The position numbers were made by a program, and so were the translations under genes. From Saccoglossus kowalevskii (taxonomy: Eukaryota > Hemichordata > Enteropneusta > Harrimaniidae), in contig NW_003133345.1 of assembly GCF_000003605.2 (NCBI RefSeq), positions 19,096 through 52,494 of the forward strand: a stretch of 33,399 bases of DNA, written 5' to 3'. The notes beneath the pieces are model-generated. The model made no database searches and had not been told where the DNA came from. It saw only the letters and a program-made list of their open reading frames with translations. Shown here piece by piece: positions 2,080-30,772 of the stretch (positions are counted from its first letter, which is position 1; every line of letters begins with the position of its first letter).

Positions 2080-2557
2080 AACTGGTTTTAGTACTGGTCT
2101 CGAAGTGGGCGCGACAACAACTAGCCTTGGCATGTAAGTCAATTTATCGTAAAATACTTCATTTCTCATATTCGTTGTTTTATTCGCTATTTTTATTACA
2201 ATTTCATTGTTTTACATGTATATTTATTGTGAAGTAAATAGTTGATATTTCCAGTTATTCCAGCTATATATATATAGTTAAACTTTGTGACGAATTTCAG
2301 CCAATGAATGTTGAGCGCTGGCATTTTGAATATCTTCTCCTAAATCCCGGTGATATTACGCCTATCGGCACTGTATCTATTTTGCTGTTCCTGTTAATGT
2401 CTTCGACATAAAGGTGTTCTAAGTTACATACAATACGACACATCTTGATATACACGGATTGTCATTATTCATCGCCTTTCAACCTTAATCACTAAATCCT
2501 TTTTTATTAAAATTCTGTTTCTACATTTGTGCCGAGAACAGGATATTTGCTGGTAAC
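2080..2557 (+). mobile_element. possible LTR and leader of the BEL/Pao element
   Basis: This stretch directly precedes the gag start. Just before the ATG, at about 2527-2545, a GTGCCGAGAACAGGA-like string resembles the primer-binding-site neighbourhood of BEL/Pao elements. Upstream there is a TATA-rich run near 2266-2278. I could not find a matching second LTR in the window, so neither the LTR borders nor a target-site duplication can be fixed. The call rests mainly on position. Confidence 0.25.
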
Positions 2558-3520
2558 ATGACAAATGAAATCGACTTAACGCAGCTCAAGAAGAAGAGAA
2601 CCAATGCCAGATCTCAACTCAACCGAGTGCTTAACAAGTTAGAAGCACTCATCACTCAATATGATACCCAGTCCGACAAAGCTGATGCCTACGAAGAAAT
2701 CAAGTCACTCCGACCAGTCGCTGTCAGGCGCCTAGAAGTGCTAATTGCTGTTGACGCGGAAATGATCAGTCAACTCACTGAAGACGACCATGAATTCCAA
2801 GATACCGATGACTATGAGATCGCTGCCTCAGCACGAGTCAACAAGGCGGTCAGTTTCATCGAGAAACACAGCGCAGCCAATAAACGACGCATCGCCAGAG
2901 AACATACCTTAACGCCATATCTACAAGCAAGTGGTGATATACAGTCTCTAACGACGAAATTAAAATCCATGCAACTATCTAAACTAGAAATTCCTATGTT
3001 CTACGGTGATGCACTCCAATGGTCACAATTCGACGACAAATTTGTCTCTACTGTCGACAATAATGAACATTTATCTAAAGTACAAAAAACTCGCATATCT
3101 ACGAAGTTTCCTAAGCGGAGAAGCCAAACATCTACTCCGAATGCCTTGCAACAACCGAAGCCAACTACACACTCGCCTATCAACTACTGAAAGAAATGTA
3201 TGGCCAACCCCAGAGAATAATCAACGCGCATAAAAAATCACTGTATGAACTGCCAACCCCAAGAAAACAACCCGGCCAGTCTACGCCAATTCCATGATAA
3301 ACTTGAAACAAACATTCGCTGCTTGAAAGTTCTTGGTGAAGATGAAGACAGCTATTGTAAGCTTCTCATTCCTATAATTTTTGGGAAATTACCAATCCAT
3401 TTTCAACGCAAACTCGCAAGAATACGTGGTGACTCTGCCTTGACTGTACCCGATCTTCGCAAAGCCATTGAAAATGAGATACACATATTTCCTGTCGGCA
3501 ATGAACATTCTATTGATTGA
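2558..3520 (+). mobile_element. BEL/Pao retrotransposon gag, decayed and truncated
   Basis: This is the remains of a BEL/Pao-type Gag (the family with the DUF1759 and Pao-peptidase layout). The N-terminal part begins at ATG 2558 and is rich in Lys, Arg, Glu and Gln, like the coiled Gag N-terminus. It is followed by the conserved block with the motifs KLEIPMFYGD and LRSFLSGEA, and by a DUF1759-like part with the motif FHDKLETNIRCL. The homologous text runs through three successive frames: the 2558 frame to about 3090, the next to about 3140, the next to about 3240, then back to the first until the stop near 3520. Each step is +1. No protease, reverse transcriptase, RNase H or integrase follows, so only the gag end is left. 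In the family Gag packages the element RNA; this copy cannot make an intact protein. Confidence 0.8.
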
Positions 3521-5276: not shown

Positions 5277-6903
5277 ATGGAGTCAGAAAGGGAAGTTCCG
5301 ACCAAGTGCAAGCCAACAGATTTCAGTCTATGTATAAAATGTCAAAATTGCAACAACAAAAAATGAAAAAAACACTAAGAATATAAGGGATGTATCAACA
5401 TACAAAAGATTTCTGCACTGCGTGACTAAGAGAGCTGAGCTAGGAAATCCTGAATATATTAGTCTGGCACAGCGATTGAAAGAATTTACAGAAGAAGGTC
5501 TCAGTGACGGGGGGGGGGCACAGTGGCATCGCAGCTGTTATAGTGAAACGACTAGTAAAAGCAAAATAGAACGAGATGAAAAACGGTTTAAATTTAATGC
5601 TGACAAGACAAGAAAGAGAAAGTGGAGACCTTCCGCTACATCAAGTTCAACTGATAACAGATGTTTGCAATCCACAGCTGAACGATTTAACCACCAGAAA
5701 TGTTTTTTTCTGTCAAGGAAGAGATTCAAGCAAAGTGAATGAAGTTGTACATGCCTGTCAGAGTGAAGGCAGTGGTAAATCAATACAACAAATTGTAGAG
5801 AAGAGTCACAATAAAATATGGAAAGTGCAGTTAGCTGATATCATTGCAGAGACATAGTTTACCATACCAGCTGTAAAACTACACATTAGCCCAGAAAGAC
5901 GCAGTGCTTCTGTCAAGAATATGGAAGACAAATTACGATTCATAGCTGCTGAAATGGAATTTTATGATGAGCTTCAAGAGCAAATTGAATCGGGAGAGTA
6001 CATTACTACAGTTGAGGTTGAGGTTGAAACACTGTATGAAGACATGATGTGTGATCACAGGGTAGTTAGCACATCAATTACACGCAGAGCTTTAATGGTA
6101 AAAGTTTTTGAGAATGTAACAAATGTTGTGATATCTCCAAACAGAGGTAATTTACCTGGTATTTTACATTCCAAGACAAGTGGTCGTGAGGCAGCGAATA
6201 TAGCCAGAGAAGAACACGATGTATTTGCTGATTTTACTGCGATAATCAAGTGTGGAAAAATCATCAGAACGTTGATTACCAATGCAAAGAAAGAGTGTCC
6301 TTGGGTCTTTACAGGGTCTCTTGTTGGCACCAGTGAATGTGGTGTGCCAGTAGAACTGATGATATTGATAAGGTGGATATTACAGGGTTCTAAAGCTGCT
6401 ACAACTAATAAATGAGAGGAATGTAAGACAAAGAAACAAATGACAAACGACTGGAAAGCCCATTTGCTGTAGGTCTATCACTTTGGATGTATCTTAATCT
6501 TCGTAGCCAAAAACTTATAACTCTACTCAGTAATGCATGTGCTGGTATAACATACAACAGAGTAACACATGTCTCCAGTCAAATAGCCAATGATATACTA
6601 CAGAACATCCAATCACATGGGGTGTCTGTTCCAGTTGGTATTGTGAAAGGAAGGACAATACGTACATCGGGTGATAACATTGACAAAAAAGTTGATACTC
6701 CTGATGGCAAGAATAGTTTCCATGCAATGACATCGTGTATATATCAGTCAATCTCTGATGGTGAGACATTGGTGGAACCACTTGACCTCTTCAAGGTACC
6801 TTCTGGTGCTCTGGTTGGTGTACCAAATACATGCATCGATCTGGTAAAGTGCAACATAAATGGCAATCCAAAACCACGTTCTAGTCTTTCTTATAGTTCC
6901 TAA
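5277..6903 (+). pseudogene. broken copy of a multicopy invertebrate gene family, function unknown
   Basis: The text matches, from memory, a large family of uncharacterised proteins in cnidarian, hemichordate and amphioxus genomes. It starts at ATG 5277 with a Cys-rich stretch (CIKCQNC at 5331-5351). This is followed by a block with the motif WHRSCYSETTSK (about 5524-5559), a second Cys segment (VFFCQGR, about 5703-5723), a helical middle part and a downstream block ending in DTPDGKN-type residues (about 6694-6714). It is broken at least four times: a frame change in an A-rich run near 5360-5370, another near 5690, an in-frame TAG at 5855-5857, and a TGA at 6413-6415 with a frame change before 6487. 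The family protein continues well past the last segment, so the 3' part is missing. A run of ten G lies at 5509-5518 and keeps the frame. The family is often multicopy, which suggests mobility, but I see no transposase motif. Confidence 0.65.
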
Positions 6904-13800: not shown

Positions 13801-14058
13801 CCTATTTATCAACTGAACTAACATTTATTTCCTAAATGCAAACAACTCAATGGTATACATTATTTTAATTAGATTTGACAGTAGTTTTGTGATATTTTTC
13901 AAATGAGTTCGAAATCTACATACATAAAACTGAAGTGGCCCATCGGCGTACTGTACATTGCGATATCGCATTTCAGTGCTAGATATACAGCTGTTCGTGA
14001 CGACGGCGTTTCCACCCACCGTATATAGTCAATACAACGGGCGACAGTTTGAGTGTAC
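10831..14058. other. stretch without a recognised gene
   Basis: No coding exon is supported. Two overlapping open frames on opposite strands (12776-13099 and 12792-13046) look like chance. AAAGATGGCGTCC at 12739-12751 resembles a YY1 site or a start context, but the frame from that ATG closes after 33 codons without a donor. Confidence 0.5.
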
Positions 14059-16038
14059 ATGGAATACGTTCCTATGGGAAGACGCTTATTTGAACTGCAG
14101 AAACTAGATTATAAATGTGGACACAGTGGCGTGTCGGGCACGAGATCACCGAGGCGTAACTGCAATGTAAATATAATGAATAACTCACTTAATTCTCAGC
14201 TCATCTCACCAATTCACCCTCGGCCAGCAGACACCATGAAGACGGTCGGTTTTACCAACGCTACGCCTTTCCTCAACATCACCGAAAAAGTAATCGACGT
14301 GGAAGCTACGCAAGAATTACTGCGTCTGGTGGGTACATCGGTTATCGGGTGCTTGCTCACTTTCGTTATACTGGTCGGAAATTTAATCGTGCTCGTGGTT
14401 TTCCGGACAGACCGTCAACTTCGCCGCAAAAACTACTACTTTATATATAACTTGGCTATAGCTGATTTCATTGTCGGTTTGAACTCGGTACCTGGATATA
14501 CCGCTTATCTTGCCATTGGTTATTGGCCGTTCGGGCGCATAGCATGTGATATTTGGCTGATCATAGACTACGTGGCGTGCGCTGTATCCTTATTTACTAT
14601 TATTGTCATTACCGTTGACAGGTATATGTCTTTGTCTAATCCTATTGCACACGTGACTAATATGCCAAAATCTCGCGTTCTTACCTGGATCGTCACCACA
14701 TGGGCCATAGCTATTGTATTATACGGATTACCTATATTCTTATGGCCCCGAATTCACGGGTTCTATGAATACGCACCAGAAACCTGCGTCATAGATTATC
14801 TCAGTCACACCTGGTTCACGTGGATCCAGACTGTTTTAGGATTCTGGCTACCAATGTCAGTGCTCGTAGTTCTATATATCCGCATATACATGTTTGCTAG
14901 TCACGTGACTTTGAGAAAAAGAAAATACCACGCGAAGTTTGTTGGTCACGCGAAGAAAAAAAGTTCGGAGTTGAAAGTGACAAGTATTTCTGATAAAGTC
15001 CACCAGTCCTATTTGTCATCACCCAGTGGATTGAAAGTGAATTTTTCTGAGACAGAACTGGAAATGTTTTTTGAGTCAAAAGGAGCGGTGAAGAAGCAGC
15101 ACGACGAAGGTACAATATATGCCGAGGATAAAACGGATGATCTAAACTATCGTTGTATGTTGGGCACAGAGACAACACCATCATTTATGTATATTAATCA
15201 AGCTTTTCGCGACGACACATCGATACATCACTCAACAGCTGACCAGATATTGTCTTCAGGTACACTGATGAGCTCTCTAAAACACCGCGCGTCAACTCTA
15301 GGCTAACAAAGTCGATAACGTTGAACAAAGTGAACAAATAAAAACCCATGGACGGGGACAAGGTAGCGACAATGCTCTTGGATGATCAAACAACAGGAGA
15401 AGAGATCCTGGCCCGTATCAGTTATTTTTCAAGAGAAAACGACGAACATCGTCCTATCAAACGCACAAAACTACACATACGTGGAAGTGTGACTTATTAT
15501 AACAGCCGATGCAATAACAACAATTCTAGATACAAAAGTTCAGTTGAAAAACGCTCCATTGAAATGAAAACTATGAACGGCATCTTAGGTGATAACCAGA
15601 AAATCGGGACAACTTGACAAGGAATTACCCAAATACAGAGGTCGTAGGAAAAATATTTCCATAAGAACAAATTCACTCAAAGCAAGAGTCAAGACTTCGG
15701 AACGCAATGAAACGAATATAAAATGTACACAAGTGTACAAGTCCAACAAGAAATCACCGACTAGCTCCTCGGACAATAAAGCGTTGAGTACAGTATCAAG
15801 CTTAGTATTAGCTCTAACACTCTGTTGTATGCCTTACCATATAGCCGCCATGGCGTCTAGTATATGCCCAACATGTGTCAGTCAAGATATTTTTAACGCC
15901 TTCTATTGGATTTACTACACAAATAGTGCATTGGATCCGTTATGCTATGCGTATTCATTAAAGCGTTTTCGGCTTGCATTGCAGCGCGTATTCATTCGAT
16001 GCAAACCGACACAGCCGGCCATATATGGGAGCAACTGA
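14059..16038 (+). CDS. aminergic rhodopsin-class GPCR (muscarinic / histamine H3-like), loop 3 broken in frame
   Basis: A seven-helix membrane receptor, probably for a small amine. Helix 1 (GNLIVLVVF), helix 2 (LAIAD), Cys3.25 and Asp3.32 (GAC 14566-14568, in WLIIDY), DRY (14617-14625), ECL2 Cys, Pro5.50 and helices 6-7 (15790-15960) are all visible. WL-DY in helix 3 and YW--Y in helix 7 point to the muscarinic/H3 group. The extracellular N-terminus has NAT and NIT glycosylation sequons. ATG 14059 is the first start; 14176 and 14236 are alternatives. Oddities: the helix 6 motif is CCMPYH, so Trp6.48 is Cys and the muscarinic Asn6.52 is His; helix 7 has DPLCY instead of NPxxY. The long third loop (14891-15785) changes frame after TAA 15304-15306; the text continues in the frames 15302-15382 and 15342-15617 and then from 15589 to TGA 16036-16038. 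Explanations are assembly indels, an intron (donor-like CAG|GTACAC at 15260) or a pseudogene. Confidence 0.8.
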
Positions 16039-16471: not shown

Positions 16472-16521
16472 NNNNNNNNNNNNNNNNNNNNNNNNNNNNN
16501 NNNNNNNNNNNNNNNNNNNNN
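16472..16521. other. assembly gap of 50 N
   Basis: Fifty unknown bases, a typical placeholder length. The true size of the missing DNA is unknown. Confidence 0.99.
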
Positions 16522-23376: not shown

Positions 23377-24193
23377 ATGGGTAACCTGGAATCTGCGCTA
23401 GGAGAAGAGGGTGAACTGGGGGACGTACATCAAGCACTGGTTCATGCAATGAGAGATTTGCTAAAGGACCAGGAGGATTCGAGCAACGTGACGCCTGAAC
23501 AGAGAGAACACGGATGGGACCCAGACGATTGCTCAGACAACATGAACGTTTTAAGCGACGGTGTCACAGCTCGTAGAGGGGATCAAAGTAATCGCACTGA
23601 CGGTGTCAGGGGGAAGAAAGGATATCGCACTGGTACCCATGAATTTGAGATCCACTGTGCAGCCAAGGAAAGAGGCTCACATGCTATGATTGGTGTAGCT
23701 ACCCCCGAAGCGCCTCTGGGCTGCGTCGGTTACTCGAATTTGCTGGGTACTACTAACGATTCCTGGGGATGGAATTTGGTAGATTTGAATTTGGTTCATG
23801 GTGGTAAAGTAATTAAAAGTATCCTTCCAAACGTGGATATAAAGTACCTGATACGTTTTATGCCATACTGGACGCGAACAATGGCACATTAAGGTACGTA
23901 CCGATACTGGGGGTACATCGCCTGCCCCGAATCTGTTAACATTTAATTTTACTTGCAAGTGCACGTTATAGAGTAATCTATTCTAAAACAATTATCAACT
24001 CATTATTTGTATATAGGATTTGTCCTAAGATACCTACACATATACTTTTGTTTTAGCTTCAAGGCGAACAATGAAGACCTTGGAATTGCTTTCAGCAATC
24101 TTCCCCATCAAGATTTGTTCAGACCACTGTGTATTGCAGCTTGCGCTTCCAGAGACGAGTGTGACATACGTATGAAGTATATGGGCAGTGGTG
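23377..24193 (+). CDS. SPSB-like SPRY-domain unit, two to three exons
   Basis: SPRY domains of the SPSB type bind short peptide motifs on partner proteins. Exon 1 is 23377-23893 (donor AAG|GTACGT) and exon 2 is 24057-24193 (acceptor TTTTGTTTTAG, donor GGTG|GTAAGA). Family marks: GWDPDDCS, RGKKGY, GSHAMIGVATPEAPLG, NDSWGWNL, then VPDTFYAILD, LGIAFSNL and the end MKYMG. The start MGNLESAL fits an N-myristoylation signal. In exon 1 the family text changes frame at the AAAA run 23815-23818: upstream it reads in the ATG frame to GGKVIK, and downstream (YPSK, YKVPDTF) one base is missing. Read literally, the frame ends at TAA 23890-23892. A third exon may start after the strong acceptor at 24404 and stop at TGA 24446-24448, with AATAAA at 24591-24596. 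With one base restored this gives 232 residues and no SOCS box. Alternatively it is the N-terminus of the NHR gene downstream. Confidence 0.75.
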
Positions 24194-24671
24194 GTAAGAT
24201 ATTCAGAGATACTTAGATTTATTCTCATAGTATCAATGCTTGGCCGAACAAGTTTTTTATGCAGCCCAGACATTCTCTCCCTCTTACATGAAAGTAGAAT
24301 AGCAAGTTTCAATACAAAACAAAAATTCCATTAAACATCAATATTTACTTTTAATGAAAATGTAACCTCAAAAATCAGAGAAAGTAATACTCTTCGTCTT
24401 TCAGCGAATTTTGACAAAGTTTCAGAGTCTGGAGGCAATGATAATTGAACGTAACATAAATCCTAGTGTATGTACATTTACATCAGCATGGTTCGATAAA
24501 TCAAAGTATTATGTACAATCTAAAGCTCCATTAAGACTATTTATTTCGTTATTCATTCACTATGATTGATTCTGTTATTTTTTTCAAAAAAATAAAACGA
24601 GCTTAGCAAATGATAGTCACTTTTTAAACCATAATTCACACTTCGTGATTTGTTGCTTGGTTTGCTCAAAG
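24194..24671 (+). other. unresolved SPRY-to-NHR junction
   Basis: Exon 2 of the SPRY unit ends in phase 1, but the NHR exon starts in phase 0, so a direct join does not work. A 14-nt exon 24405-24418 would fix the phase but has a poor donor (GTTTCA). The same acceptor read through instead gives a stop at 24446-24448. Confidence 0.5.
24591..24596 (+). terminator. AATAAA polyadenylation signal
   Basis: It lies 143 bases after the possible stop at 24448. If used, the SPRY unit is a separate gene. Confidence 0.35.
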
Positions 24672-26419
24672 GAGTATTCATCTGTCAACATAACGATTGA
24701 TATCGACTCCCAGGGTGGGCGCATTTATACAATAGTAATTAAAACGTTTTCTCAATTCGAAGGGAAAATTGTACAAGTGACTGAAGCCGGAGAGGAAGTA
24801 GTTTCTGTTCCGCCACCTAGCGGTACAAGTTATTATACATTTCATCAAAGATGTGGCAATACTGTTGACGTCATGCATGGTGGCAGAGTTGCCAAGAGAC
24901 AGGAGTAAGTACTTGATGAAATGAATAATTAATTGAGGAATATATTAAATGTTTGAATATCTATAATCTATATTATATATGACACGTCATATATATTTAT
25001 TAAATCGATACAATATAACTCGGCCTCTCTTAAAGTTACACTTTCAGAATGAATAATTATATATATTCTTTTTATATATAATTATTATATATAAAATAAA
25101 ATTCATGCAACATATTTCGTGTTTTGAATATGCGGGAAATATGTCATAAACATTTAATAATTTGGATTCATAAATGATTCTCCATTTTCCCCGGATTTCG
25201 CCAATATGTAACATTTGTTACATGACTTTGATTTTGTTTTTGAATCTTCAATTATGATTATTTTCCAGTGCAAGAAACGAATTTCACAACGCAGTGGTAT
25301 TGACTAGACAGCCCCTGAAGACCGACGAACTTTTTGAAATTCGCCTAGACAGCAAAATAGGACGATGGAGCGGATCTATTGAAATTGGCTTTACCGACAA
25401 TTCACCCGAAAGGTTCGAGTTTCCCTCAACCATGACTGAATGCGACACAGGAGTGAATATAATGTGGAGTGGCACGAATCTGGTGAAAAACGGGAAGAAG
25501 ATACTCGAACTAGAGAAAGATTTGGACGATTGCACGGTATTTACTGCTAAAATATCAGCATTATATTTTTTTACACTTTTTTAAAATTTGTGAAACGAAT
25601 AGAGATAATATGGGTATAACATATCATTTTCTGAAGCACATTAATTTCCCTACACGATGTAAATATTAAAACATTATGACAAATATCTATCAGTGCATAC
25701 CGGGCATATTAGAATAACGAATGATGGTTATGATGGGAAGTATAATTATTATACATCTGTCACCGTAACGCCGTAAGTTACAGCCTGTCGTAATTTTGTG
25801 GTATTGCACTGATTATTTTCATCCTACCATATTAGGAAATGCTAATTCCAAATATGGAGCGATTACGCGCGTGAACGTCCTCTATTGATAAAAACAAACA
25901 GCAGCCCCCAGAGTTTGACCAGACTCCATATAAAGAAGTTCGCTAAATCTGTTCTAAATTTTTGGATTTCGGCATTCCCCTGATGTATCTTTGGGAGGAA
26001 AAGATGTATAATAAGGTCAACTGCGCGTCGGGCGATAATCCCGCTGTACTGTCTTCGTGCAGACTTTTCGGTATGCTCGTAATAACCTCATAATCATTCT
26101 ATTAGTATTTAGTACTATATTTACCGATCATGCTATAAACTTTTACATGATACTCAACAACTATTTACCTGTACCTAATATGTTTCCTTCTGACAATGGA
26201 TCACCTATATAGATTGTCGCCATATTATGATGGAAATATTATGCAATTGTTTGTTATAGGTTGGTGACACAATAGGCATTGTTAGAAGAGCTGACAAGTC
26301 TTTCCATTTGTACTTTAATGGCGAAGTGTTACAAAAAGCCGTGAAACTTAAAAACAGTCCTGCCGTTGTTTATGGAGTTGTTGATATCTATGGTCAAGCC
26401 GAAGGTGTTACTATATGTG
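24672..26419 (+). CDS. NHR (Neuralized homology repeat) domain, exons 1-3 of the NHR-ARM-ART frame
   Basis: Exons 24672-24904 (acceptor TTTGCTCAAAG, donor GGA|GTAAGT), 25269-25536 (acceptor TTTTCCAG, donor ACG|GTATTT) and 26260-26419 (acceptor TTGTTATAG, donor GTG|GTGAGG). About 50 beta-rich residues precede the domain. The NHR domain starts at FHQRCGN (about 24840) and carries the usual series: RVAKRQ, FHNAVVLTRQPL, ELFEIRLD, WSGSIEIGFT, IMWSGTNL, VGDTIGIV, LYFNGEV and YGVVDIYGQ. NHR domains of Neuralized, NEURL4 and LINCR recognise protein partners, mostly in ubiquitin-ligase settings. There is one NHR here, against six in NEURL4. No ATG lies in frame near the first exon, so the gene must start further upstream, possibly in the SPRY unit. 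Intron 25537-26259 carries a dispersed repeat. Confidence 0.85.
25754..26088 (+). repeat. dispersed repeat, copy 1 (in intron)
   Basis: Aligns along its length with 30823-31190: TGTCACCGTAA, GTAAGTTACAGC, TTTTCATCCTACCATATTAG, GATTACGCGCGT, GGGAGGAAAAGATGTATAAT and the end GTAATAACCT. It lacks the left arm of the hairpin found in the other copy. Confidence 0.9.
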
Positions 26420-26527
26420 GTGAGGATCTTTTTATATATGTCATTGTACATTACTGAAGTTATCATCGGACATCACCTTCGAATCTAAAGGTCACGGTCA
26501 TATTCTGTGTATTCAATTATTTTACAG

Positions 26528-27756
26528 GCAGTGACTCACTCACGCCAGTGCCAACTTCTCCCAGAGTTGCAAGACCAACTACAGCGAAAGCTGTGGCGTC
26601 CGGGAATGATCCGAACTCAATCATGTTCAGAATGAGGGAAACTGTCGATTTAATGAGAAAGGGATCAGACGAGGACATTCGGACAGTTATTGTAGCAATC
26701 CTACAGACCGTTTATCAACCTTATAATGATACCAACAATCAGCAACTACGTCGAAGATTTGGTGACCATCTAGCGAGTATTGGCATGGCGGCAGAACTGA
26801 AGAAGTTACTGGATCGCCTGAATGACATTGGTATAGAAACTGAATCGGCATGGTTGGGGATGAATATTGTACGCAGTGTCTGCTGGAACTACGCAGATGC
26901 CAGTCTGAAATTCTGCAAACATCTCGGAGATTGTGGCCTACTAGGAATGATGCTTGACAATTTGGATGAATATGGACCAAGAAAAACTGAAAATGAGGTA
27001 GTATGTTTTAAATATGCATTACAAAGATATGTTTAGAAATAACACATTTGAACAATTTCTGTTTAACAAGAGTTTGGTAACCGATTCGTTCAGTTACATT
27101 TTATTAGATTTATGGACATTATTAGCTTCCTTATTTATGAATGTTTCTGTTATTCTGTTATTAGAAAAGACGTTTTATGGTAATGTCGGCACTCAGTATA
27201 CTTCACAACTGTTCAAAAGCGACTGAAAATGAGCAGGTCTATCGCAAACTTCGTGCCATTGACAGAATCTCTCCATTTCTCAAATCTGAAGACATGGAAC
27301 TGGCAATGATCGCCTTGCTGACTATATCGTACGTCGTGCAAGAAGACAGAGCTACTCTCTTAGTAGCGGGGGATGAAATAATATCTCACACCGTCAGTCT
27401 TCTGGAAAACGCCTTGCAGGATCCAGATTTACACGGGCATTCCGATAGTAGTAGGTACTCTGCTTTGGAACTGGTCATGGGGCTGGAGAAGATTGCTGCC
27501 AACGACAGAAACAAAGTGACCATCGTCAATGCGGGTGCTGTGCCTATCTTGGTTGATTTAATGAAGCTAGACAGACCAGCTGAACAGGAAGCAGCAGCTA
27601 ACGCAATCTGGGTTTTTGCGAAACACATTAAATGTAAAGATGACATCAAAGCAATTGCAAATGTGGTTCCGACATTAGAATCATGTAAGAAAAGTAAACA
27701 CAGCGCCGTTAGTGAAGCCGCTGAAAGAGCACTGATGCAGTTGAAAGCTGGACAAG
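26528..27756 (+). CDS. Armadillo-repeat region, exons 4-5 of the NHR-ARM-ART frame
   Basis: Exons 26528-26997 (acceptor TTATTTTACAG, donor GAG|GTAGTA) and 27165-27756 (acceptor TTCTGTTATTAG, donor CAAG|GTAAAT). After a Pro/Thr/Ser-rich linker (SLTPVPTSPRVARPTTAK) come several helical repeats of about 40 residues. The clearest Armadillo signatures are ALSILHNCSK, LLTISYVVQ, LVMGLEKIAANDRNK with VNAGAVPILVDLM, and EQEAAANAIWVFAKH. Armadillo repeats form a superhelical protein-binding surface. The phases match the flanking NHR and C-terminal exons, so these lie in the same transcript. No frameshift is present over the whole region, in contrast to SPRY exon 1. Confidence 0.85.
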
Positions 27757-27840
27757 GTAAATGACAAGCTTCACAAGCACATGTTAAACAAAGTTGTTAC
27801 ATTTTTCGCAGTACCAGCATCTCAAGTTTGTGTAACTTAA

Positions 27841-27988
27841 AGCGGAGGAGTCGTCACCTACGCATGCGTCAGATACATGACTGTTTACAAACAAACGCCT
27901 ACCCATGAGCCTTTGCGTTTTTAGCATGTGTTGTTATCGACGCTTGGGACTCAATTCCGGCGCGTGCGCAGGTGACGACCCACCCGCT
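27841..27988. mobile_element. TTAA-flanked inverted-repeat element (MITE), copy 2
   Basis: A 148-bp non-coding element between TTAA 27837-27840 and TTAA 27989-27992. The left end is AGCGGAGGAGTCGTCACC; the right end, reverse-complemented, is AGCGGGTGGGTCGTCACC. It shares its inside with copy 1 at 9702-9857. It lies in the intron after the Armadillo exons, 85 bases past the donor. Confidence 0.9.
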
Positions 27989-28307
27989 TTAAGGTATAGA
28001 TGCAGGTTTGTTCACAAGCGCACCCCGAAACAAATGTTTGTTGCAGTTGTCATATATAGATAGTAATTTGCTTCACACTGTCGAGACCATTGCTTTACAC
28101 TGCTGGGATTGGAACTATATAACACGTGGGACATACATTACTAAGAGTAAAATTCAGTTGTGAAAAATAACGCAGGAGTCTCCATATAATTGTGTGTAGC
28201 CAACACTGTCTAATTTGTTTTAAAAAAGCTAAAACATAATGTTGTCACTCTGGGCGGCCACGATCCCGCATCTACATCAATGACCTATTTCTTGTGATTC
28301 ATCACAG

Positions 28308-30559
28308 TAATTCCTGGTGGTCGATTTTCCAGTCGATGTGAATACAGACAATTATGTGAACGGTTTAAAAAATCCCTGAATCTAAATGGTGAGTTTAAGT
28401 ATGACAAATGATTTGTTCACTCTAACATAACGTATGTAATGAACCACGCTTTGTTTATTCAGAACTAGACGAGACAGAAGCGATAGTAATTATTGAAAAT
28501 ATATGTTTTATTTGTAAACCTGTCATTTGAATAAATAATGCATATAAAATACTTAAAACTCAAAAGTGTGCGATATTACGTAGTAGTTTTCAAAGCCAAT
28601 TTTCACAATAATTTTTTATGGTAATTTTAAAAAAATAGAGCAGGCACTACGATCTAATTTTCAAAATACATCATTTATAAAATAGTTAACGGTAACAAAA
28701 TACTGTAGTTAATTTCAGTAATTAATTTTGCTCGGCTATCCAGCGAGCCATTAGTCACGGCGATCAATGGCGTTTAGAAAGTTTTAAAACAACCCCGTGA
28801 ACAAGTTCGTGACCGCAGATTAATCTTTTTGATTCAGCTGAATTTGTAAGCGTCCGTACCCCTACCTCAAATACGCGTGCTCTGCCGCTAACAACTACGC
28901 ATGCGTGACTCAATATATGATAAGGAGGCCAATCATGCACATGCTGTACGAAATATACAACGTTAATGAGGTTATGGCGCAGGCATAATTCATAAGTATT
29001 GATCATAAAACACCACAATCACAAATTTTCGGTCTCCACTTGCAGTCTGGCTGCTTCCTATCATACTGAATTATTCACTAAATTTAACACTACGTATTTG
29101 ACTAACACGAGTAAATATCTCAGTGAGTCTAACTAGTCCTCGAAATTTGTTAGCGCCACCAACGGTTAATATCCCTGGCTCTACTTGTCAAGCGTTGTTC
29201 ACTGAATCACCCTGTGTAACTCGTATCAGTCTGTTCACTCAAATACCGTATAGGACACTACCAATCTCTGTTCACTAAGAAACCTGTTCAGCACACCTTC
29301 ATATGCTGCTGGCACTGACTAACTTTATTTTTTTAAATATTTCACAGACCATTTCTTCAATGATAGGTTTGATATGTGCTACTGTAACTCGTGCCATTCC
29401 GCCAGAGGGGACAAATTGTCATACTCACGTGGGAATCCACCAAAGGTCTACTGTGTCCCTATAGGATGGTGTCGATTTTCCCTGAGGTTAGTTACAATAA
29501 AGATAAACGTGTTTCCATTACCCATAATACACCCAGATAAAGCACAAATAATGCCACCAATTGTATCTTAGAGATGTAAAGTATTTGAATTTCATCCCCA
29601 CGGAATGTCGTCCTTACGGAATATATCTGCACACTTATCAATGAAAATTATTGCACATTCGTTGCACATTAGAAATTTGACTTTGAATGTGTGAAATAAT
29701 TATTACAATATAATCAGTACCAATTACAAGAAGTGATTGTTATTCCTGTTTCCATTCAGTGTACCACCAACTGCAGATGCCCACGATGTGTTCAACCAAT
29801 GGCATGTGGCATTCCATGGGACAACTGTGGATGCAGTGAAACCAATACTCGATATTGGACAACTTCTTTTACCCGGTACTCCCGCTTATTCGACCGTTAC
29901 TTTTCACAAATGTCACAAATGAGTTTATTCATGTTATGTTACTGTTCTACACATGAGTATGCTATTTTCAGAATGGCGAATATAATTTGTTTCTGTGATA
30001 AAAAAAAAATACTCAATGTACATACCATGGTGAAATGTTTTCTATAACATGTTTGTTATTCAGGCGATATATTGCTTGGTGGAAAAAAGTTGAGCGAAGC
30101 TCAAGGCCATTTCAGCGATGACTGGAAACCTACAGGTTTCGATACAAAACAGGTGTTCCTTTCACCTAGTATCAGATATTCCGGCTGTGATGTTTACGCT
30201 AAAAAAGCGAGGTAAGTGCTTATTATCCCAAGTAATTTTTGGAAGTCTAAGCATAAGTGTACAAATACCACTGAACAACTTTCGCATAAGAATCCAGAAC
30301 AATTGAAAATGTGTATATCCATTATCAATTTTATGTGGTTTTTCATTTTATAAGCTTCAAAGACCCGAAAACCAAACGGAACTATAACGCACGTGTGGTA
30401 ATTCAAGTGAGTATCAAACCAGGATCGTATAAAATTGGAAGAGAAACAATTGGTGTAACTTCAAGGATCGACCAGCACTTTGATAACCAAGAGATTGAGT
30501 GGTCCACTAAACAACGTGGAAGCATTATTATGTACGGATTACTTGTTAAATTGGAATAG
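28308..30559 (+). CDS. NEURL4-type C-terminal module, candidate PARP-like ADP-ribosyltransferase; exons 6-10
   Basis: Exons 28308-28388, 29348-29486, 29760-29875, 30064-30211 and 30355-30559, all with GT-AG borders and matching phases; stop TAG 30557-30559. The ten exons from 24672 sum to 2412 nt, 803 residues. A Cys cluster (MCYCNSCHSARGD) and GWCRFSL precede WHVAFHGTT, then QVFLSPSIRYS, ARVVIQVSIKPGSY and NQEIEWST. FHGT with a following IL-x2-G, the SP-IRYS segment and a late Glu resemble the His-Tyr-Glu layout of PARP-type ADP-ribosyltransferases: candidates are His (CAT 29815-29817), Tyr (TAT 30177-30179) and Glu (GAG 30491-30493 or 30497-30499). From memory, the same module ends NEURL4, reported to support ADP-ribosylation of mitochondrial proteins; activity here is inference. 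The 81-nt first exon is too short to stand out as an open frame and was found from its splice sites. Confidence 0.8.
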
Positions 30560-30755: not shown

Positions 30756-30772
30756 AATAAAGTGATAATAAA
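30756..30772 (+). terminator. two AATAAA polyadenylation signals
   Basis: AATAAA at 30756-30761 and 30767-30772, about 200 bases after the stop of the NHR-ARM-ART frame. They are well placed as its 3' end. Confidence 0.6.

Follow-up and report, generated by a model that had tools for sequence, protein, structure and literature searches.

What kind of protein is encoded where a Neuralized repeat (NHR), Armadillo repeats and a possible ADP-ribosyltransferase (ART) module follow one another on one strand? The question is raised by a stretch of 33,399 nucleotides (nt) from the hemichordate Saccoglossus kowalevskii (NW_003133345.1, positions 19,096 to 52,494), in which an earlier note, made from the letters alone, had described a ten-exon gene. 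This whole stretch, hereafter the window, is C2502:19096-52494 in the contig numbering used for our searches of the 572 Mb assembly. The answer that we favor, with a probability of about 60% that includes its proposed mode of action, is that the window carries a 12-exon member of a gene family in which an ART module like that of NEURL4 is united with SPRY, an NHR that is likewise of NEURL4 type, an Armadillo solenoid and a Cys-rich segment. In spliced alignment the gene spans 23377-30559 on the + strand, and its predicted product contains, in this order, SPRY, one NEURL4-like NHR, Armadillo repeats, a CxCxxCH segment and an ART-like module. Its exons, and candidate polyadenylation signals downstream, are as follows.

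23377..23893, + strand: exon 1; start codon (MGN...), N-terminal part and first part of SPRY; frame break near 23821
24057..24193, + strand: exon 2; end of SPRY; ends in phase 1; homologous exon in C1808
24763..24904, + strand: exon 3 (start corrected); linker and first part of the NHR (from about 24840); acceptor and phase as in C1808
25269..25536, + strand: exon 4; NHR
26260..26419, + strand: exon 5; end of the NHR
26528..26997, + strand: exon 6; all-helical low-confidence model; probably start of the Armadillo region
27165..27756, + strand: exon 7; Armadillo repeats (PF00514, AlphaFold model, Foldseek)
28308..28388, + strand: exon 8; short linker exon with conserved CxYxxxC
29348..29486, + strand: exon 9; Cys-rich, CYCNSCH...RGD...PIGWCRF
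29760..29875, + strand: exon 10; ART motif I, FHGT; His codon 29815-29817
30064..30211, + strand: exon 11; ART motif II, QVFLSPSIRYSG; F codon 30156-30158 (proposed triad), Y codon 30177-30179 (choice of the earlier note)
30355..30559, + strand: exon 12; end of the ART, NQEIEW; proposed catalytic Glu codon 30497-30499, other Glu 30491-30493; terminal stop
30756..30761, + strand: candidate polyadenylation signal AATAAA, by pattern only; others at 30767 and 30956

This model was produced by our own spliced-alignment script, run on the window and on fetched relatives, and start and stop codons were added by eye. The query was the SPRY part of a paralog on contig C1808 fused to the downstream protein of the window itself. 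By construction, the window fits this query in its downstream part and C1808 in its SPRY part; independent checks come from the reverse pairing (SPRY in the window, downstream part in C1808), from the splices that link the two parts, and from the remaining loci. The ten stretches described previously do have GT/AG borders and compatible phases, and they total 2412 nt, or 804 codons with the stop. Their first exon (24672-24904) begins 91 nt too early, as C1808 uses an acceptor homologous to 24762/24763. The start at 24672 was rejected: no in-frame ATG occurs in the 91 nt that it adds, and their phase does not fit the preceding exon. Two upstream SPRY exons (23377-23893 and 24057-24193), absent from the earlier note, join in phase, and exon 3 receives phase 1 from the second of them. 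The MGN N-terminus is what we take to be a possible myristoylation motif.

Comparison within the genome supports this structure. A search with the downstream half returned 71 matching pieces, and the gene therefore belongs to a family. The C1808 paralog runs from 32121 down to 24133 on the minus strand in 12 exons, with no stop and no frame break, and its intron phases are identical to those of the window gene at all 11 positions. The same phases recur in C4067 (8/8), in the C3272 copies at 478 and 492 kb (9/9 each, downstream of SPRY) and in C2921 (8/9). That NHR, Armadillo repeats and ART-like end lie in one gene, as had been proposed, is borne out by the intact C1808 copy, and the partly readable paralogs agree. 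The family NHR is present at seven loci (window, C1808, three C3272 copies, C4067 and C2921), while matches to the Cys-rich exon occur at 17 places and to the last ART exon at 11, window gene included. In the same search, ART pieces at C1001, C4171 (two), C3979 and C3981 had no adjoining Armadillo match, and C993 had Armadillo and ART pieces with no NHR match.

Some further observations concern the spread of the family. Three family loci stand in a row at C3272:477936-512500, each with SPRY, NHR and Cys-rich pieces, in what looks like a local duplication. Armadillo exons of the same type, with no adjoining Cys-rich/ART match, are found at C2917:905261-916296, C4441:1252527-1256363 and C1913:475239-478814. 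A 3283-residue open frame at the C4067 relative was rejected, the stretch reading N. Searching bacterial genomes and viral contigs with the ART alignment gave 29 and 37 pattern matches, respectively, none of them a relative.

Does the SPRY domain belong to the same gene? The earlier note had guessed at such an attachment. In Pfam scans, PF00622 (cut-off 26.3 bits) matched the C1808 protein with an expectation value (E) of 7e-12 (45.9 bits) and the protein of the C3272 copy at 478 kb with E=2.9e-7 (31 bits). The two SPRY pieces of the window scored 20.3 and 15.1 bits, under the cut-off, with E=6.1e-4 for the piece before the frame break. A genome search with SPRY gave nine pieces. The window gene and C1808 account for two each; three more, at 477933, 490385 and 504528 on C3272, are each followed downstream by NHR pieces, and the last two are found on C1599 and C2824, one per contig. 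SPRY is thus found upstream of the NHR at five of the seven NHR loci (window, C1808 and the three C3272 copies); in the fetched sequence upstream of C4067 and C2921, largely N, SPRY could not be sought. One could suppose that SPRY and the NHR-Armadillo-ART part are two adjacent genes fused in error, as an alternative short exon at 24405-24448 would close the SPRY frame with a stop, and the junction model of the C3272 copy at 478 kb contains tiny spurious exons and is not settled. However, besides the recurrence of SPRY before the NHR, C1808 and the C3272 copy at 490 kb (modelled with one extra small exon before SPRY) splice across the junction in the phases of the window gene, and the first exon of the earlier note offers no start codon before the NHR, its earliest Met sitting within that domain. 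We consider an erroneous fusion highly improbable; a SPRY gene ending at 24448 was rejected, and the guessed attachment held.

The window copy itself has a defect as assembled. The frame of exon 1 is lost near 23821 in the spliced alignment, and the 12 exons total 2975 nt, which is not divisible by three. The locus could be a recently disabled copy, a pseudogene, whose intact relatives function elsewhere in the genome. This single break argues for such a state, and no second contig of the same locus turned up in genome searches. Against it, no other exon is interrupted and the splice sites of those 11 are intact; the break adjoins a short A run and may stem from faulty assembly or an error in the reads. 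We give the pseudogene somewhat less than an even chance; it would be compatible with the family reading that we favor. Elsewhere in the family, the script flagged one such break on C3272, in the copy at 494476, and the C3979 fragment has two.

The middle of the protein is formed by domains that are recognized directly. The single NHR reported for this locus is present, with PF07177 at E=2.6e-31 in the joined window protein, 3.7e-33 in the C1808 protein and 3.1e-16 in that of the C3272 copy at 478 kb. Its nearest solved relative is 2e63, from human NEURL4/KIAA1787 (E=7.1e-28), followed by two Neuralized entries at 1.2e-4. Searching the genome with the window NHR returned 17 pieces, 16 from this family and one on C3046. 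The latter, at C3046:379886-380338, is a strong single-exon NHR (PF07177 E=9.4e-43) of another type, with E=0.24 to the window NHR. No six-NHR NEURL4 was found in the assembly, where only the best candidates were scored and parts read N, and we do not claim its absence.

The Armadillo repeats were likewise confirmed. In the window protein PF00514 reached E=1.9e-5 for one repeat (25 bits, cut-off 20.6) and in C1808 E=8.3e-7 (29.3 bits); C2921 (19.9 bits) and the C3272 copy at 478 kb (14.7 bits) stayed under the cut-off. The product of exon 7 (197 residues), folded alone with AlphaFold, gave a helical solenoid with helices throughout and a mean predicted local distance difference test score (pLDDT) of 71.7. 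Among the 50 Foldseek matches listed, 44 carried the names of armadillo proteins, most of them designed, with a best E of 9e-5, and the other six were engineered proteins. Exon 6 folded alone was all-helical at low confidence (pLDDT 55.6).

What, then, is the C-terminal module? Eleven copies could be aligned over it, C993 lacking the end and C3981 the beginning; left out were C3979 and the third C3272 copy, for which too little was modelled, and C1286 (two places), C1110 and C1212, which have matches to the Cys-rich exon only. In this alignment C28, C30, C33 and Y141 are invariant (11/11 for the Cys) and H34 is kept in 10 of 11 rows, so that the Cys-rich segment of exon 9 may be a zinc site. 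The His of HGT and the F of FLS/FVS are each kept in 10 of 11 rows, and the second Glu of ExEW in nine of the 10 rows that reach it. The exception is the same for all three residues, a row from C4171.

This copy, at C4171:618790-621775, has the ART module of the family with its modelled exons open. It reads RGV for HGT, CVT for FLS and ELVW for EIEW, but the SIRY tyrosine and the first Glu are still there. To judge by these residues, the module is a natural pseudo-ART. The joint loss of the His, the F and the second Glu suggests, from one copy only, that these would form the active site and that the tyrosine of IRYS would be structural. The motifs FHGT, IRYS and a late EIE listed in the earlier note are all present in the window protein; its His-Tyr-Glu triad is not supported. 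In a profile alignment with six PARP sequences, of low confidence, the F of FLS stands opposite the Y of YFA, and the degenerate paralog likewise favors this F as the second residue. The triad probably reads better as H-F-E (FHGT, FLS, EIEW) than as H-Y-E.

How PARP-like is this module? The ART part of eight copies, aligned with hhalign to the PARP set, scored 29.8 with probability 44.5, and the 11-copy alignment was similar (score 30.2, probability 34.8). The score of 29.8 was reached by none of 300 column shuffles (maximum 21.8), and the reversed alignment gave 16.4. This signal lies in HGT and the helix after it. When that part was removed, the score fell to 12.3, which 67 of the 300 shuffles equalled, in a test weakened by the fact that only three of the six PARP rows cover the domain end. 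The region of the proposed catalytic Glu, reached by the same number of PARP rows, was not aligned to PARP above chance. In the Pfam scan of the window protein (the query had two extra Arg), nothing matched the C-terminal 230 residues up to E=10.

Several of the results weigh against the interpretation that we favor. Beyond the HGT-helix, the PARP likeness is no better than that of shuffles; PF00644 matches two of the 11 members, at best with E=0.19 and in no case convincingly; unrelated Pfam families equal or beat this by chance (YL1_C 0.016, DUF5846 0.028); and PDB profile searches were of no use, with one chance match at E=8 and none in a second search. Of the two Glu in NQEIEW, the first is present in all 10 rows, degenerate copy included, and either might be the one that matters. 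Finally, the frame of the window copy is broken as assembled. The part of these results that concerns the fold could mean that the module has another fold with a chance HGT motif and is not an ART, given that the rest of it resembles PARP no more than shuffles do and that no useful PDB profile match was obtained. That alternative appears improbable to us, since the HGT-helix score lies beyond all shuffles and well above the reversed alignment, and H, F and E are lost jointly in one paralog. We assign the module to the ARTs because of motif I, the likeness to the motifs listed for NEURL4 and this joint loss, and not because of a full-domain match. It is likely an ART.

NEURL4 is also among the closest known systems. 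A published table gives it as H-L-E, with motifs HGS/LLS/ELE and a bracketed 121 that we take as the ART length (PMC7955679); these motifs and the short length resemble HGT, FLS and EIE here, although motif II has F in place of the L of human NEURL4. The C-terminal modules were compared by these published motif triplets and length only. The link to NEURL4 drawn in the earlier note stands for the NHR, where the match is direct, and only indirectly for the ART. A published abstract gives NEURL4 six NHRs, as opposed to one here in company with SPRY and Armadillo; we have therefore not filed the gene as a NEURL4 orthologue. A review passage calls NEURL4 the most studied diverged human ART (PMC10789625), and a passage of an AlphaFold survey describes its ART as PARP-like, arguably outside the PARP family (PMC10450202).

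Other known proteins share single parts. The PARP/ARTD catalytic domain (PF00644) has in common HGT followed by a helix, and the proposed His and Glu in the same order, but it has Y at motif II where F is found here, and the remainder cannot be aligned above chance. SPSB/TRIM-type proteins have a SPRY domain, presumably similar to ours in the case of SPSB, whereas here the domain shares one protein with NHR, Armadillo and ART. Pfam scans of the window and paralog proteins gave no match to RING, SOCS-box or NACHT. ARMC5 and the plant U-box type share the Armadillo solenoid, which here forms the middle of an ART-ended protein, and the same scans gave no U-box or BTB match.

How might such a protein work? 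We propose that SPRY, NHR and Armadillo would bind a partner and keep it near the C-terminal ART. The ART would bind NAD+ through the His of HGT and the aromatic F of FLS, and the Glu of EIEW would transfer ADP-ribose to the partner or to the ART protein itself. The transfer would probably be of one unit (mono-ADP-ribosylation), the choice between mono and poly being our inference. Enzyme activity is likely, as a prediction. Alternatively, with the same gene structure, the ART could be a pseudoenzyme that binds NAD+, ADP-ribose or a protein, and the whole a SPRY/NHR/Armadillo adaptor. NEURL4 is described as an adaptor with HERC2. A pseudoenzyme would agree with a second triad position that is probably F, not Y, and with the one member that has lost the proposed triad, yet keeps its modelled exons open. 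But almost every other copy retains the His, the F and the Glu, and NEURL4, with L at the same position of the table, is reported as active: passages of two reviews hold it responsible for mitochondrial ADP-ribosylation (PMC9149570, PMC10789625). We regard a pseudoenzyme as unlikely, and prefer the active ART.

Is the family maintained by selection? Paralogs were compared with the window gene in 19 comparisons of the NHR, Armadillo and Cys-rich/ART parts (SPRY not included); left out were C4441, C1913 and two regions of C2917, which have Armadillo-part matches only. The proportion of synonymous differences (pS) was 0.70-0.92 and that of nonsynonymous differences (pN) 0.18-0.50. These proportions were used in place of the ratio of nonsynonymous to synonymous rates (dN/dS), because synonymous sites are saturated and dS was finite in just five of the 19 comparisons. 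By this measure purifying selection acts on all three parts, NHR, Armadillo and Cys-rich/ART. Identity was 39 to 72% for the NHR in five paralogs, and 26-56% for Armadillo vs 50-69% for Cys-rich/ART, Armadillo being lower in all six paralogs that have both.

One can go further and imagine a NEURL4-derived lineage that has become a multigene set of sensor-effector ARTs, in which SPRY and NHR, two sensor folds of SPRY-like type, and the fast-changing Armadillo part would sense different ligands (perhaps of pathogen or stress origin) and the conserved ART would provide one output. SPRY-like domains, the Neuralized repeat included, are said to be prominent in eukaryotic immunity in a passage of PMC8195603. 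We hold this extension to be doubtful; if true, it would mean that the NEURL4 ART had been put to a use resembling innate immunity, away from mitochondria.

Some other sequences were noticed along the way. By translation only, open reading frames of the window at 14053-16038 (+ strand) resemble an amine-type G protein-coupled receptor, and those at 2489-3520 and 5338-6903 (+ strand) parts of transposable elements, the first gag-like. The 50 N at 16472-16521 are most simply an assembly gap. Mitochondrial COX1 lies at C4830:13523-14863 and reads with TGA as Trp; from what we take to be its conserved positions, ATA is probably Ile and AAA Lys, a reading at odds with the echinoderm code that could bear on the placement of the animal.

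What appears to be new here is the combination, as the parts (SPRY, NHR, Armadillo and ART) are known. A description of SPRY-NHR-Armadillo-ART was not found in the literature searched, the coverage of which was partial, with subscription papers mostly outside it. A family that keeps the ART module with other binding parts, together with a paralog lacking the triad, constitutes a natural test of the key residues. The family likewise offers a natural test of whether binding domains choose the targets.

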